64,000 bases of DNA from Desulfofustis limnaeus (GTDB taxonomy: Bacteria; Desulfobacterota; Desulfobulbia; Desulfobulbales; Desulfocapsaceae): positions 806,001-870,000 of the forward strand of contig NZ_AP025516.1 in NCBI RefSeq assembly GCF_023169885.1. The letters run 5' to 3'. Made by a program: the position numbers and the translations under genes. The notes beneath the pieces are model-generated. The model had not been told where the DNA came from, did no database searches, and saw only the letters and a program-made list of their open reading frames with translations. Shown here piece by piece: positions 2 to 16,693 of the stretch (position 1 is the first letter of the stretch; every line of letters starts with the position of its first letter).

Positions 2-1426
2 CTCGCGGCAATCTGGGTCAACGATACGGTACGGCGTTCGGTGGGCATGCCGATCGGCCGGCTCTGTCATGAGATCATTTGCAAAAACGATACACAATGC
101 AATGATTGCGCCGTGCCCAAGAGCATCCGGACCGGTGAGGTGAAGATCGGTATTCAGCGGATTGAGCAGTCCGATTCGATAACTCCGCTTTTTTTCGAGA
201 TCATCGGTACTCCTGTCAAAAATGGGGCCGGAGTGGTCGAGAGTGTTATAGTCATCGCCCGGGACGTGACCGAACGGTTCAAACTGGAAAAACAATTGCG
301 CCATGCCCAGAAGATGGAAGCCATCGGCACGCTGGCGGGGGGGATTGCGCATGATTTCAACAACGTGTTGACCCCGATCATGGGCTATGCGGAGATCCTC
401 AAGCTGAAAATGCAACAGAAGGGTCTCGCCGATGAGGCGATGAATGAATATCTCGGGGAAATCCTTCGGGCCGGCCGGCGGGCCAAGGGTTTAGTGGAAC
501 AGATCCTGGCCTTTTCCCGCAACACCGAGCAGAAGGAGAGTCCGCAGCTGCTCCATCCGATCGTCAAAGAAGTGGTCAAGCTGCTGCGCTCAACCCTGCC
601 GGCGACCATCCAGATCAAACAGGACATCGATGAGAAGTGCGGGCCGGTGCGGGTCGATCCGGTGCAGATTCACCAGGTGCTGATCAATCTCTGCACCAAC
701 AGCGCCGATGCCATCGGTGAGAACCACGGGGTACTGACCGTGGTCTTGAGAAGGGCCCGGGGGCAGGGCAGTGAGGATGAGTGGGTCGAACTCAGTATCG
801 GCGACACCGGTTGCGGCATGAAGCGTGAGCTGCGCGACCGGATCTTCGAACCGTATTTCACCACTAAGGAGAAGGGACGCGGTACCGGCATGGGGTTGGC
901 CTTGGTACACAGCATCATCAGCCGGCACGACGGCCGCATCGAGGTGGAAAGCGAGGAGGGGAACGGAACGCTTTTTCGTATCCTGCTCCCGGTTGCAGCC
1001 CAGCAGAAGAGCACCCTTGACAAGATCGTCAAGCCGGAACAGTTGGCCGGTGGTGATGGCCGAATCATGCTGGTCGATGATGAGCAACAGGTGGCCCAGG
1101 TGACCGCCGAACTCCTGCGCAGCCTCGGCTACCAGGTCAGCGGCTGGACGTCATCGGTCGAGGCGCTGAAGCACTTTCAGGAAAACCCGGAAGGATACGA
1201 CCTGGTCCTGACCGACCTGACCATGCCGCAGATGACCGGCACCGAGATGAGCGCCCAGATCAAGAAGATCCGGCCGGAGATGCCGATTATACTGTTTACC
1301 GGATACTCTGAAAGGTTGAGCCGGGAGGCGGCGGTGGATGCCGGTATCGACGAATATTGCATGAAACCGGTGGCCCTTCGCGAACTGGCCCATACCGTCT
1401 CCCGCCTTCTTGCACACCGGTCCTGA
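2..1426 (+). CDS. PAS sensor histidine kinase with C-terminal receiver (5' end outside window)
   Basis: The frame is open to the left edge, so the true start lies outside; a GTG at 41 is only an internal candidate. In order it holds the end of a PAS domain with a Cys cluster (CHEIICKNDTQCNDC), a HisKA box with the phospho-accepting His in GGIAHDFNNVLTP, a HATPase domain (N box in LINLCTNSADA, G boxes GDTGCG and GTGMGLALVHS) and a receiver domain (DDE near the start, DLVLTDLTMPQMTG acceptor Asp, Lys in CMKPVA). It is a hybrid kinase of the kind that autophosphorylates and passes phosphate to its own Asp; no membrane segment is visible in the part present. It ends 14 bases before a convergent gene. 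The input signal is unknown. Confidence 0.9.
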   Translation, partial: LAAIWVNDTVRRSVGMPIGRLCHEIICKNDTQCNDCAVPKSIRTGEVKIGIQRIEQSDSITPLFFEIIGTPVKNGAGVVESVIVIARDVTERFKLEKQLRHAQKMEAIGTLAGGIAHDFNNVLTPIMGYAEILKLKMQQKGLADEAMNEYLGEILRAGRRAKGLVEQILAFSRNTEQKESPQLLHPIVKEVVKLLRSTLPATIQIKQDIDEKCGPVRVDPVQIHQVLINLCTNSADAIGENHGVLTVVLRRARGQGSEDEWVELSIGDTGCGMKRELRDRIFEPYFTTKEKGRGTGMGLALVHSIISRHDGRIEVESEEGNGTLFRILLPVAAQQKSTLDKIVKPEQLAGGDGRIMLVDDEQQVAQVTAELLRSLGYQVSGWTSSVEALKHFQENPEGYDLVLTDLTMPQMTGTEMSAQIKKIRPEMPIILFTGYSERLSREAAVDAGIDEYCMKPVALRELAHTVSRLLAHRS

Positions 1427-1440
1427 CCCGTTTCTTCCGT

Positions 1441-1863
1441 TCAACCGGTTTCGCCGGCCCGTTTCCGGTCGGCGTGGTTGATCTGACTGATCTGCGAGTT
1501 CAGCGTCCAGAAGTCGTAGATGATTCCCACGCCGAACAGGCCGAGGGTGCAGAGGTAGAGCAGCCCGGTCAGCCACTTGCCGCAGTACATCCGGTGAGCT
1601 CCGAAGACCCCGAGGAAGGTAAGCAGCAGCCAGGCGATGTTGTAGTTAACCGGTCCGTCTACAAAGCGGTAATCGGCGTCTCGGTTCATCGAAGGAATGA
1701 GAAAGAGATCGATTATCCAGCCGACGAAGAGCAGGCCCAGGGTGAAAAAGTAGATAGTGCCGGAAATCTGACGGCCGTAATAGAAACGGTGGGCGCCGAG
1801 AAATCCAAAGATCCAGAGGAAATAGCCGATCAGTACGTCATGAGTGGTGGGTTTCGTTTGCAT
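1441..1863 (-). CDS. TM2-domain membrane protein
   Basis: 140 residues with two copies of the TM2-type module: an aromatic/hydrophobic helix followed by a GAHRFYYG or GAHRMYCG turn and a second hydrophobic helix ending near D (WIIDLFLIP, IIYDFWTLN). Four membrane segments are predicted by eye. The family is widespread and has no firm biochemical role. The start codon overlaps the end of the upstream nagZ-like gene by 26 bases, so the two are probably co-transcribed. The C-terminus is short and charged (NHADRKRAGETG). Confidence 0.8.
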   Translation of the reverse strand: MQTKPTTHDVLIGYFLWIFGFLGAHRFYYGRQISGTIYFFTLGLLFVGWIIDLFLIPSMNRDADYRFVDGPVNYNIAWLLLTFLGVFGAHRMYCGKWLTGLLYLCTLGLFGVGIIYDFWTLNSQISQINHADRKRAGETG

Positions 1864-6837: not shown

Positions 6838-6891
6838 GGCGGGGTGGATCCGGAGGAGTGAATAAACGATAATTCAAAAGGAGTGCTGGAG

Positions 6892-8085
6892 ATGAACAAT
6901 TTACTGGCGGGTGTGATTCCTCAGGAAGGAGGATTGGAATCCACAAGTTCTTGGAAGTATACGGCTTCCCTCTTTCTTCTCGGTTTGCTCAGCGTGGCCG
7001 GGGTAGCCTACGGCATTCATTCAATTGCCGTCGGCCATGAGCATACCTTCGGGGTGACTCGTGAGGTTCCATGGGGATTGTTGATTGCGGCATACGTTTT
7101 TTTCGTGGTCACCTCGACGGGGCTGTGCATTGTTTCTTCGATCGGTCATGTGTTCGGTTTCAAGAATTTCACGCCAATTGCCAAGCGAGCGGTATTTTTG
7201 TCGATTGCCACGATCGTTGCCGGCTTTTTGGTTATTGCCTTTGAAATCGAAAACTCCTGGCGCATGCCGGTGGGTAACGTGATCGGTGCCAACCCCACCT
7301 CCAACATCTGGTGGATGGGGACGCTTTATGGGGCGTATCTCTTTTTTATGATGGTCGAGTTCGTCATGCTCCAGAAAGAGCAGCACAAAACGGCAACCAT
7401 GTTCGGATTGGCCGGTTTGCTCACCGGTGTCGTGGCCCATTCCAATCTCGGCGCCGTGTTCGGACTGCTCAACGGGCGAGAATTCTGGCACGGCCCCTAT
7501 ATGCCGATCTACTTTATTATCTCGGCTGCCATGTCCGGTTGTGTGGCGATCGTCTTTTTCACCTACATGGCCTATCGCTTCAATAACTGGGAGATGAGCG
7601 ACGACATGAAGAAGTCGCTGCAGAGCGTGGCAAAATTGGGCGCTTTGATGATGGCCGTCATCCTCTTCTTTACCTCATGGAAGATGATCGCCGGCGTTAC
7701 CGGGAACCCTCCCGGTAAATATGCCGCCATGATGACGCTGGTGAACGGCCCGTATGCCCTCAATTTCTGGATGGGAGAAATCCTGCTCGGTATGGTCCTG
7801 CCTTTCGCCCTCATTCTGGCGGTACGGGGTGGAAATATGCGCGTGATTTTTGCCGCCTCGGTAGCCGGCATGATCGGCATCTTTTTCATGCGCTACGACT
7901 TGGTTATCGTCGGTCAACTGGTGCCGCACTATCATGGCATGGGACTGGTAGATTACCCGGAATTGTTCACCTATGCACCGAAGCTGCACGAGTGGATGGT
8001 GACCATCGGCGGTATAGCCTTCTGTCTGCTGCTGTTTCTGGTGGGCGAGCGGCTTTTCCGGGGACATCTCAGTGAGGCTCATTGA
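6892..8085 (+). CDS. NrfD/PsrC-family polytopic membrane protein
   Basis: 397 residues with about ten hydrophobic helices. The opening (WKYTASLFLLGLLSVAG, then VTREVPWGLLIAAYVFFV) and HSNLGAVFGLLNGREFWHG are typical of the NrfD/PsrC/HmeB-type quinone-interacting membrane subunits. These proteins normally dock onto an iron-sulfur subunit and exchange electrons with menaquinone. No iron-sulfur, cytochrome or molybdopterin subunit is adjacent here, so it is a stand-alone member. ATG at 6892 is chosen over the GTG at 6883 because AAAGGAG lies nine bases before it. A MerR-type regulator follows closely. Confidence 0.85.
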   Translation: MNNLLAGVIPQEGGLESTSSWKYTASLFLLGLLSVAGVAYGIHSIAVGHEHTFGVTREVPWGLLIAAYVFFVVTSTGLCIVSSIGHVFGFKNFTPIAKRAVFLSIATIVAGFLVIAFEIENSWRMPVGNVIGANPTSNIWWMGTLYGAYLFFMMVEFVMLQKEQHKTATMFGLAGLLTGVVAHSNLGAVFGLLNGREFWHGPYMPIYFIISAAMSGCVAIVFFTYMAYRFNNWEMSDDMKKSLQSVAKLGALMMAVILFFTSWKMIAGVTGNPPGKYAAMMTLVNGPYALNFWMGEILLGMVLPFALILAVRGGNMRVIFAASVAGMIGIFFMRYDLVIVGQLVPHYHGMGLVDYPELFTYAPKLHEWMVTIGGIAFCLLLFLVGERLFRGHLSEAH

Positions 8086-12445: not shown

Positions 12446-13147
12446 TTACAACGGGATTTTCCAGCCGAAGATGGTGGTGACGCCATCTTCGTCATGATTG
12501 ATCCGCAGGTCCAGATACTCGAGTGTGGCCCAGATGGGATCCACCCAGAAATAAGAATCGCCGTGGTCGATGGCGTATCGCTTGATCTGATAACGGACCT
12601 CGCCGATCATCCAGCCGATCCCGGTGGTCAGCAGAATGTCCTTGCTGGAAGGGTGTTCGGTCCAGGATTCCAATCCGTACTCCCAGGTGAGTGAAGCCGC
12701 CAGGCTGAAGGCGATACTGCCGGGGATGCCGAAATCGCCCTCCCGAGCCCGCAGGTAGGTTTCCGATCCCATCAGGGGGTGGAGGACCAGGTTCAGCACG
12801 TCGTCATCATCGTCTTCCCGGGGTGATGGGTTGTCGAGAACTTGTTCGAAATTGTCGTAGCTGATCGAGTTGTCGTTGAGATCCAGCAGGTTGAGCGCGA
12901 CAAATTCGACGGCCAAGAGCGCCGTGGTATAGGCGACCGGGGTCACGACGTCTCGAGGAAGGGCGGTGCCCGGGCGGGACAGGATGAGGCTGAGCGTTAG
13001 GAGCCCGATACTTCCCGCCCGCAGGACATGATGGCGCTGCCTGAGGCTGCTGGCGAACGTGGTACGACGAGGGGGCCGATGGACGGTCCCCGTCGGTTGC
13101 GGCGTGGGGGCCGGCGTGCCGGTGGGTGTCGTCATGCTTGTCGGCAA
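12446..13147 (-). CDS. DUF3943-type membrane-associated protein
   Basis: 233 residues. A Pro/Thr-rich N-terminus and basic stretch precede a hydrophobic segment (AGSIGLLTLSLILS), then an acidic run (REDDDDD) and a domain with HPLMGSETYLRAR, SLTWEYGLESWTEHPSSKD and GIGWMIGEVRYQIKR. These match my memory of DUF3943, a family found at the cell envelope with no known activity. It begins seven bases after the stop of the CoA-disulfide-reductase-like gene and is probably co-transcribed with it. The name is from motif memory; the function is unknown. Confidence 0.65.
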   Translation of the reverse strand: MPTSMTTPTGTPAPTPQPTGTVHRPPRRTTFASSLRQRHHVLRAGSIGLLTLSLILSRPGTALPRDVVTPVAYTTALLAVEFVALNLLDLNDNSISYDNFEQVLDNPSPREDDDDDVLNLVLHPLMGSETYLRAREGDFGIPGSIAFSLAASLTWEYGLESWTEHPSSKDILLTTGIGWMIGEVRYQIKRYAIDHGDSYFWVDPIWATLEYLDLRINHDEDGVTTIFGWKIPL

Positions 13148-13154
13148 TTCATGG

Positions 13155-14507
13155 TTACACTTGCTTCAGAGCTTGCCGGGCTGCGATGACGAAGGGCTCC
13201 CAGACACCTGAGAAAGGGGGGGCATAGCCAAAGTCGAGGTAGAGCAGGTCGTCGAGTGTGAAACCGGCATGCAGAGCCACCGCCAGGGGATCGATGCGCT
13301 TGGCAGCCCCGGGGCCGCCGACGATCTGGCCACCGAGCAGGCGCTTGCTCTCTGGTTCGGCCAGCAGTTTCACCGTCAAGGGCGATGAACCGGGGTAATA
13401 GCGGGGCAGGGTCCGGGCCTCCACCACCGCTGAGACGAACTGGATGCCGAGTTCGTTCAAGGTCCGTTCGGGCAGACCGGTGGAACCGATCTCGGTGTCC
13501 ATGAACTTGCTGACGGCGGTGCCCACGATGCCGGGAAACTCAGCCTTTTTCCCGGCCAGGTTGATACCGGCAATTTTACCCTGCTTGTTGGCGATGGTTC
13601 CCAATGCGGCGTGTACCGAGCGGCGGCTCACCAGGTGATAGGATTCGGCACAATCGCCGGCGGCCCAGATATCGGCCCGCCGGGTCCGTTGTCTGCGGTC
13701 GACGGCGATTGCCCGGTTCGCCCCGAGCGGGATGCCGGCAGCGGCGGCAAGATCGCTGTTGGGTTCGACGCCGAGACCAAGAAGAACAATATCCGCCGGG
13801 AAGGTTTCCTGGTCGGTGATGACGCCGGTGGCGATGCCGTTGTTGCTGTCGAAGCCGGTTACCGATTGGCCGAGCTGGACATCGACACCGTGCCTTCTCA
13901 GGGAATCGGCGACCAACTCAGCCGTTTGGCGGTCCAGGGTGGCTGACATCAATTGCTCGCCGCGTTGGATCAAGCGTACCTTCATGCCGTGTAGGACAAA
14001 CGCTTCTGCCATTTCCAAGCCGATGTACCCGCCGCCGACAATGACCGCTGATTGCGGTCGCTGTTGATCCAGGCTCCGTTTCAGTGCTATCCCGCCATCA
14101 AGCGAGTTGACGTGGTGGATGTTGCTCGCTTCGATGCCGGGCAGGGGCGGGCGTACCGGTTTGCTGCCGGTGGCGATAAGGAGGTGATCAAAGTGGTGGT
14201 GATAGTCTTTGCGGCGAGCCAGATCGCGGACCAGAATCGAGTGAGAGTCAGCGTCTATGGCGATGACTTCGTGCTCGGTATGAACTTGGATATCCATCTT
14301 CTCCCGGAAGGTTTCCGGAGTCCTGGCAATGAGTTGTTCGGCAGAGTCAACCAGACCGGCGACGAAATAGGGAACTCCTCAGAGCGCAAAGGACGTATAC
14401 GGCCCTTTTTCGAATACGGTGATATCGAGATCGGGAGCCAGCCGCCTGGCCTGTGATGCGGCGCTCATGCCGGCGGCATCGCCACCGATTACGGTCAGTA
14501 GCGTCAT
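13155..14507 (-). CDS. CoA-disulfide reductase-like flavoprotein, predicted selenoprotein (Sec43 = TGA at 14379-14381)
   Basis: Reading from ATG at 14507 gives an FAD-binding N-terminus (TVIGGDAAGMSAASQARRL), then EKGPYTSFAL, an in-frame TGA as codon 43, and GVPYFVAGLVDS, continuing without any shift through ATGSKPVRP, the NAD(P)H motif VIVGGGYIGLEMAE, the FAD motif IWAAGDCAE and a C-terminal dimerisation domain (YYPGSSPLTVKLL, LDFGYAPPFSGVWEP). Length is 450 residues, normal for the family. Known CoA-disulfide reductases have SFANCALPY with catalytic Cys43, so TGA replaces exactly that Cys. A hairpin with a GGUCU apical loop and a bulged U starts 15 bases after the TGA (14346-14363), as in bacterial SECIS elements. 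The alternative is a nonsense mutation, but the rest is well preserved. A gene caller would wrongly start at 14297. A DUF3943 gene follows. Confidence 0.85.
14346..14363 (-). promoter_or_regulatory. candidate bacterial SECIS hairpin
   Basis: On the minus strand GTC-G-CC, loop GGTCT, GG-TT-GAC: outer GTC/GAC and inner CC/GG pairs, a G-U pair and one bulged U. The loop begins 22 bases after the TGA. The E. coli fdhF element also has a GGUCU apical loop and a bulged U. Confidence 0.7.
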
Positions 14508-14749: not shown

Positions 14750-16693
14750 ATGACCATGAAGACGAGCAAAAAGGTAAACGAGTATCGTGCCGATCCCGAA
14801 GTTGCCGTTGCGTATTTTCGCAGGACGGTACCCTTCGATCAGCTCGACGAAGAATTACTCCGCCGGCTGGCACGCCACTGCAAGCTCGATTTTTATCCCA
14901 AAGGAACCAGGATCCTGGTCATGGGGGAATCGGAGGTCAACTATCTCTATCTGATTCAACGGGGAGCAGTAAGTAAATTCATCGTCGATCCGCAGGGGAC
15001 GGTGTCGCTCAAGGATGTGCGTGGCGAAGGTCAGTTTTTCGGGGCCCTGGGCATCATTCAGCGGTCGCGTGCGAACGTCGATGTGGAAGCGGTGGAGGAT
15101 ACCTTCTGCCTGCTGCTGCCAAAGGAGCAGTTTCTCTGGTTGCTGGAAAATCAACCGCAGTTCGCCGCTTACTATCTCAAGGATATCTCCGACCAGCTGG
15201 TCAACACCGCCTACAGCGAACTGCGCCAGCACAAGTTGAAGCGACGGACCAGTGAGGATCTGCTGCTTTTTTCCAACACGGTGGGCGACATTGTCGGCCG
15301 GGCGGCGGTCAGCGTCGATCAGGACCTGACTATCCAGTCGGCGGCCGCTCTCATGGCACAGCAGCGGATCGGATCGCTACTCGTGCATGTGCCGGCCCGG
15401 CCTGAAGAGATTGTCGGTATCATCACCGATCGGGATCTTCGCTCCAAGGTGGTGGCGGCTGGACTGGATTACCAGCAGCCGGTATCCAGGATCATGTCGA
15501 GCCCGGTGCAGAAGGTGCTCTCCCAGACCTTGTGTTTCGATGTGCTTCTGGCCATGCTCAGCCGCGGCATTCACCACCTGGCGGTGGAACAGGGAGGGCG
15601 GATCGTCGGAGTCGTTACCTCCAACGATATCATGTCGCTGCAGGGAAATTCCCCGTACTACCTGTTCAAGGAAATAGTCAACCAGGATCGGATCAGCGGG
15701 TTGTATCCGCTCGCCCAGAAAATTCCAGATGTCATCAGAAGCTTGCTCAAGGAAGGAGGCAAAGCGAGTCACATCACCCGGATGATCGCCATCATCAACG
15801 ATCATATTCTCACCAGACTGTTGACCTTGCTCGAGGCCGAACTCGGTTCGCCTCCCGTGCCCTATTGCTGGCTTCTGCTGGGAAGTGAAGGACGACGGGA
15901 ACAGACGTTCAAGACCGATCAGGACAATGCCCTGCTTTACGCGGACCCTCGGGACCAGCGTCAGCACACAGAGGCGGTGCGATATTTTACCGAGCTAGCC
16001 GATAAGGCTGCAGATCATCTCGCCAATTGCGGTTATCCCCCCTGTCCCGGCGAGATCATGGCGCGAAACCCACGCTGGCGGCAGCCTTATTCGGTATGGC
16101 AGGGATATTTTGCCTCCTGGGTGTGCGAGCCAAATCCGCAGGAGTTGTTGAACGCCACTATCTTCTTTGATTTCAAGCCAGGCTTCGGTGAGGTCAAGCT
16201 GGCCGAAGAGTTGCGGGATTATCTGGTGGAGAAGACGCGACGGCAGGATATCTTCCTGCTGCATCTGGCCCGGCAGGCCCTCACCGCCCGGGCACCGCTG
16301 TCTTTTTTTCGCAACTTTATCGTTGAAAAAGATGGTGAGTATAAGAATCGGCTCGATATCAAGCATAAGGGGATCGCGTCCTATGCAGATTTTGCCAGGA
16401 TCTTTTCCCTTAAGCACGGCATCAAGGAAACCAACACGCTGGCCCGGTTCAAGGTCCTGGCCGACGAAGGGTACCTCGACCGGCAGTTGGCCAAGGCGGC
16501 CGAGGCCAGCTATGAACTGATGATGCAGTTGCGTCTGCTCCATCAACTGGAACAGCTGGAACAGGGGATCCTGCCTGACAACCATATCGACCCCGCCGAC
16601 TTGACCGATCTGGAAAGGCGCATGCTCAAGGAGAGTTTTCGGGTACTGGAGCGATTGCAGGCCATCCTCGAAACCAATTACCCGGCATCGTAG
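14750..16693 (+). CDS. cNMP-binding / CBS / DUF294 nucleotidyltransferase-like protein
   Basis: 647 residues. Order: a cyclic-nucleotide-binding fold (about 20-140; YPKGTRILVMGESEVNYLYLI), two CBS domains (about 185-305; IVGIITDRDLRSKVV, GVVTSNDIMSLQ), then a DUF294 putative nucleotidyltransferase (LLLGSEGRREQTFKTDQDN) and its all-helical substrate-binding partner. The domain pair resembles the GlnD-type nucleotidyltransferase core, though activity is unproven. It is followed within 14 bases by a DnaQ-like exonuclease and then by DUF4212 and a symporter. This is a recurrent neighbourhood in proteobacteria, where the protein is thought to regulate carboxylate uptake. Confidence 0.88.
   Translation: MTMKTSKKVNEYRADPEVAVAYFRRTVPFDQLDEELLRRLARHCKLDFYPKGTRILVMGESEVNYLYLIQRGAVSKFIVDPQGTVSLKDVRGEGQFFGALGIIQRSRANVDVEAVEDTFCLLLPKEQFLWLLENQPQFAAYYLKDISDQLVNTAYSELRQHKLKRRTSEDLLLFSNTVGDIVGRAAVSVDQDLTIQSAAALMAQQRIGSLLVHVPARPEEIVGIITDRDLRSKVVAAGLDYQQPVSRIMSSPVQKVLSQTLCFDVLLAMLSRGIHHLAVEQGGRIVGVVTSNDIMSLQGNSPYYLFKEIVNQDRISGLYPLAQKIPDVIRSLLKEGGKASHITRMIAIINDHILTRLLTLLEAELGSPPVPYCWLLLGSEGRREQTFKTDQDNALLYADPRDQRQHTEAVRYFTELADKAADHLANCGYPPCPGEIMARNPRWRQPYSVWQGYFASWVCEPNPQELLNATIFFDFKPGFGEVKLAEELRDYLVEKTRRQDIFLLHLARQALTARAPLSFFRNFIVEKDGEYKNRLDIKHKGIASYADFARIFSLKHGIKETNTLARFKVLADEGYLDRQLAKAAEASYELMMQLRLLHQLEQLEQGILPDNHIDPADLTDLERRMLKESFRVLERLQAILETNYPAS

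Follow-up and report, generated by a model that had tools for sequence, protein, structure and literature searches.

Across an in-frame TGA in Desulfofustis limnaeus: a probable selenocysteine form of a CoA-disulfide-reductase-like enzyme

Described relatives and the gene in the window

CoA-disulfide reductase (CoADR) and the NADH-dependent persulfide reductase Npsr use NAD(P)H to reduce persulfides, polysulfides or sulfur, and about 100 residues at the C-terminus of Npsr form a rhodanese-like domain, according to the accessible part of one paper (PMC7969121). Selenocysteine (Sec) forms of the family are in print: an “FAD-dependent oxidoreductase (CoA-disulfide reductase)” (TIGR03385) with one Sec in a UGxP motif, represented by WP_011365774.1, stands as a high-confidence predicted family in the portion seen of one listing (PMC13188914), and the same accession is given again in an excerpt of another (PMC9312934). 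The available text of two older surveys gives one Sec NADH oxidase in Geobacter metallireducens, in 2006 (PMC1794560), and, for ocean samples, one Sec NADH oxidase (PRK09564) with 99 Cys homologs (PMC2398784). The first-pass annotation had left open whether a Sec form of this enzyme had been described; these sources, as far as they were accessible, answer that it has, and the gene reported here adds one more member to a published Sec family and is not new in kind. Among the titles listed in our literature search, which had most subscription journals outside its reach, none dealt with the biochemistry of the Sec form.

The gene lies in a 64,000-nucleotide stretch of D. limnaeus DNA (NZ_AP025516.1, positions 806,001 to 870,000), the whole of which is called the window below; feature positions are collected in Table 1. 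An ATG at 14507 had been read as opening a frame that meets TGA at codon 43 (14379-14381) and runs on for more than 400 codons, and this was borne out on the minus strand, where the TGA is the single stop inside a frame of 450 codons plus TAA, 407 codons are open from the TGA to the TAA, and homology is unbroken across the TGA. The chance of 407 open codons after the TGA is about 3e-6 at the base composition of the gene itself, and a mechanical scan of the whole window gave 8 frames with one internal TGA; homology across the TGA is a stronger test of an intact gene than the chance of an open frame.

Table 1. Positions of the features discussed, in window coordinates
Feature	Position	Strand	Details	Basis
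Sec-CoA-disulfide-reductase-like gene (putative)	13155..14507	minus	450 residues with U43; ATG 14507, TAA 13157-13155	ORF reading, profile and structure matches
In-frame TGA, codon 43, read as selenocysteine	14379..14381	minus		ORF reading and homolog loci
Predicted bacterial SECIS hairpin, GUCGCC-GGUCU-GGUUGAC	14346..14363	minus	loop 14357-14353	pair counts, covariation, RNAalifold
DUF3943 ORF	12446..13147	minus	directly downstream of the enzyme gene; start codon uncertain	
cNMP-binding/CBS/DUF294 protein	14750-16693	divergent from the enzyme gene	upstream	domain matches

With C put for U, residues 5-442 were matched to positions 3-438 of the 439 in profile TIGR03385 (E=1.4e-132), and profile NF007123 was matched at E=2.2e-131. 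Both scores fell short of the curated equivalog cut-offs (442.6 against 578.8 bits and 438.6 against 458 bits), and because of this the assignment of CoA disulfide as substrate is unproven. The Pfam domains Pyr_redox_2, Pyr_redox and Pyr_redox_dim were found in the protein, whose second Cys is C286, with none besides. Solved relatives were matched from residue 4 or 5 to about residue 446, across the TGA, and the best of these were 6ruz, 3cgb and 5l1n. The flanks of U43 read SFAL-U-GVPYF, and residue 43 aligned with the Cys of the (A/Q/P)CG(L/I)PY motif in these three homologs (SYGACGLPY, SYAQCGLPY and SHAPCGIPY), in agreement with the initial placing of the TGA at the catalytic Cys; the aligned Cys is the catalytic one in the CoA-disulfide reductase family. 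By homology, the predicted read-through protein belongs to the CoA-disulfide reductase/NADH oxidase class.

The Cys CoA-disulfide reductases 3cgb, 5l1n and 4fx9 and the “NADH oxidase” 6ruz resemble the window protein over their full length, with FAD and NAD motifs, the redox residue at the same place, and the C-terminal RYYPG and GYAPPF tyrosine motifs common to both; they carry Cys, whereas the window protein would carry Sec. Npsr is homologous to it in the FAD part, and Npsr entries such as 6pfz and 3nta were among the structure matches. Unlike Npsr with its rhodanese-like domain, the window protein ends at residue 450 and gave no rhodanese match in the domain search. Just outside the window, at G000:C1:796693-798027 (plus strand), the enzyme has a paralog without internal stop (35% identity) in an open frame of 608 aa, a length consistent with an additional C-terminal domain. 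The listed Sec FAD-dependent oxidoreductase, as far as its entry could be seen, is of the same family (TIGR03385) with one Sec and a UGxP motif, which reads UGVP in the window protein; WP_011365774.1 is from another organism, has another sequence and is likened here by description, and Geobacteraceae Sec copies among our loci were about 54-56% identical to the window protein.

Codon 43 and the hairpin that follows it

A search of homologs for Cys or Sec at position 43 had been proposed, and it gave a column made up of Cys codons and TGA only: TGC in 63, TGT in 16 and TGA in 31 of 110 loci, with no other codon. These loci comprise 30 from one search, including the window's own copy (L022), and the best 80 from another, with TGA in 7 of the first set and 24 of the second; L026 and L052 look like one contig, so not all loci are independent. 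The alignments of all 31 TGA loci were without any further stop; one Cys locus (L084) has a stop elsewhere in its alignment. Among 32 further loci the position was Cys in 11, TGA in 20 and not covered in 1, the 20 TGA loci including a remote paralog (L183) and a copy in pieces (L185). L183 (G043:C233, about 404-1729, minus strand) is a second, remote CoADR-like protein with about 30% identity to the window protein and 254.9 bits against TIGR03385 (under the cut-off of 578.8); it has one TGA at the aligned redox position, in the context IVR-U-ALPH followed by GGCCGGTCTGGC, and may represent a separate Sec subfamily.

The same-genus ortholog (L023) has TGA at the same codon. Compared with it, the window gene differs at codon positions 1/2/3 by 9/9/22 in the 42 codons before the TGA and by 92/70/199 in the 406 codons after it, coding-type substitutions by which both sides of the TGA look as if they evolve as protein. 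When 395 genomes of the phylum were surveyed, with at most four candidates scored per genome, 62 had a match at E<=1e-100; there were at least 64 such matches, 39 of them with one TGA, and in the 19 of these 39 for which loci were at hand and the place was checked, the TGA was at codon 43 each time. Two genomes, G218 and G354, each had one strong match with TGA and one that is stop-free, presumably a Cys paralog.

A quick tree (LG+G4, SH-aLRT only) was built from 108 homologs, 40 Sec and 68 Cys, after 34 of 142 loci had been set aside: 20 remote loci, the three loci L183-L185, and 11 whose rows were identical or short. At least 8 changes between Sec and Cys, counted without direction on a tree for which the program gave a long-branch warning, were found, 5 of them forced by well-supported branches. 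The window gene falls in a well-supported group of 10, of which 8 are Sec and 2 Cys.

Downstream of the TGA the sequence reads GGAGTTCCCTATTTC-GTCGCC-GGTCT-GGTTGAC, which places a predicted hairpin just after the TGA, with a G early in the loop and 21 nt from TGA to loop, as expected of a bacterial SECIS element; the GGUCU loop may resemble that of the E. coli fdhF SECIS. The five core pairs were formed in 139/145 cells for 29 distinct Sec sequences (drawn from the 31 loci) compared with 188/280 for 56 Cys sequences, all from the best-80 set, the 23 more remote Cys loci of the 30-locus set being left out of this count; all five pairs were present in 23 of the 29 Sec and 11 of the 56 Cys sequences. 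In the 29-sequence alignment, pairing held in 96.6% of the 174 cells of six pairs; 24 sequences have G-C and 5 have A-U at 19-36, and pair 18-37 is C-G in 12, U-A in 10, U-G in 1 and unpaired in 6, the window's own sequence among the latter. Cells changed on both sides numbered 15 (shuffled mean 5.8; 0/500 shuffles as high), and RNAalifold, unprompted, found the same hairpin. Other measures of covariation were no better than shuffles, both for the number of pairs with two-sided change (299/500 as high) and for further pair types (500/500 as high), and sliding the pairing by +3 still paired 78.2% of cells. The window's 55-nt stretch, folded alone, was no better than its shuffles (z 0.11), and Sec and Cys loci were not told apart by minimum free energy (p 0.23); a custom SECIS score gave a modest separation (p 0.0066). 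All 31 Sec loci have Val at codon 53 and Asp at codon 54. In the 79 Cys loci Val is commonest at codon 53 too, but GTG, absent from the Sec loci, occurs in 16, and at codon 54 the commonest codon is GAC, yet in 15 only. The Val53/Asp54 pattern fits a constraint of the RNA on the protein.

Selenocysteine machinery and neighbouring genes

It had been suggested that the genome be checked for selA, selB, selD and tRNA-Sec, and three of the four were found: a tRNA-Sec (72.5 bits) and selB (364.7 bits), both above cut-off in the genome search, and two selD genes above cut-off (L017, G000:C1:281600-282523, and L018, G000:C1:929270-930196), each with one internal TGA, so that both probably encode selenoproteins. 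The fourth, selA, was not found: TIGR00474 gave 0 hits in the genome and PF03841 a sub-threshold match only, the ORF with that match reading by eye as a Cys/Met-metabolism PLP enzyme and being rejected as selA. The likely place of selA reads N in the sequence examined. In the same-genus genome G026 the selA ORF overlaps by a few bases the ORF of a large protein, TPR-like by eye; the window's genome has a counterpart of that neighbour (48% identity), next to which the sequence is N. Since this syntenic place is unreadable, a real loss of selA was not accepted. Across the family, selA was found in 72 of 93 genomes (70 over cut-off), G026 among them. In many draft genomes of the family the start of selA is a few hundred bases away from where its contig ends. 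The single-contig relatives G027 and G037 have rRNA some kilobases or less from selA, and in G037 the 16S rRNA adjoins it, so this position is probably due to assemblies that break at rRNA operons, which may also leave selA undetected in drafts.

The co-occurrence of tRNA-Sec was of no use as a test and was set aside, because over-cut-off hits were similarly frequent in genomes with a TGA copy (41/45), with stop-free copies only (20/23) and without a strong match (12/12). The four TGA genomes without an over-cut-off tRNA-Sec (G113, G136, G138 and G146) are drafts of 350-450 contigs.

At the same-genus locus the gene again has the DUF3943 ORF (67% identity) and the DUF294 protein (79%) on its two sides; of the other loci searched, many of which have short flanks, L066 alone gave a match, to DUF294. 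The plus strand further down carries genes for an acetolactate-synthase-like TPP enzyme and for an aminotransferase. Among the genes of the window and the loci searched, the neighbours gave no clue to the substrate, and the DUF3943 ORF has no known link to the enzyme. Elsewhere in the window (6883-8085, plus strand) is an NrfD-family membrane protein weakly similar to HmcC and DsrP of sulfate-respiration complexes.

Reading of the locus

The gene is very probably a functional selenoprotein gene, with Sec inserted at codon 43 by way of the hairpin and SelB. The original proposal of Sec at residue 43 is supported because the column holds only Cys codons or TGA, a hairpin follows the TGA, substitutions are of coding type on both sides, and tRNA-Sec, selB and selD are present. 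Were the TGA instead a nonsense change of a Cys codon, in a pseudogene or through sequencing error, translation would yield no more than the first 42 residues, or else a protein from a later start such as ATG 14297, where a 380-aa ORF does begin; the lack of a selA hit and the unexceptional stability of the window's hairpin when folded alone would also suit such a reading. However, the same TGA stands at the same codon in 30 other loci, one of them in the same genus, with no other stop in the alignments, the part after it evolves like the part before, and a start at 14297 would lose the FAD motif together with the redox residue. We rejected a pseudogene or error because the column holds Cys codons or TGA alone and because the codon-position pattern is of coding type on both sides, and consider it very improbable.

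A further rival is near-cognate or suppressor read-through, in which the TGA would be decoded as another amino acid such as Trp or Cys. Nothing specific was seen in its favour, and against it stand the sense codons at position 43 in the 110 loci, which are Cys codons only, the presence of tRNA-Sec, selB and selD, and the conservation of the hairpin at SECIS distance; we consider this reading very improbable as well.

If Sec is inserted, codon 43 would receive its Sec-tRNA from SelB docked on the hairpin immediately downstream of the UGA, and Sec would stand in for the single redox Cys next to FAD in a dimeric disulfide reductase that draws on NAD(P)H. FAD, reduced by NAD(P)H, would in turn reduce the Sec adduct, and the selenolate would attack a new substrate molecule, whether CoA disulfide, CoA persulfide or polysulfide, with release of thiol or sulfide. 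Relatives are the basis here for the substrate, for bound CoA, for dimerisation and for any gain in rate: CoA disulfide or persulfide may be what is reduced, and Sec might make for a faster reductase. A more ambitious proposal is that the Sec form is a distinct enzyme of sulfur metabolism, a selenium-dependent NADH:CoA-persulfide/polysulfide reductase that takes part in sulfate or sulfur respiration and has repeatedly exchanged Sec and Cys, with the SECIS hairpin also dictating Asp54 and the codon of Val53; taken as a whole we think this unlikely.

Annotation is otherwise liable to call a gene of this kind a pseudogene, or to reduce it to a 380-residue fragment that lacks the active site. The two genomes G218 and G354 offer natural Sec/Cys pairs with which to probe the contribution of selenium in a disulfide reductase. 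The Sec CoA-disulfide reductase family, known from a single genome in the 2006 listing, is common in this phylum, with 39 one-TGA copies among the at least 64 strong matches in 395 genomes.
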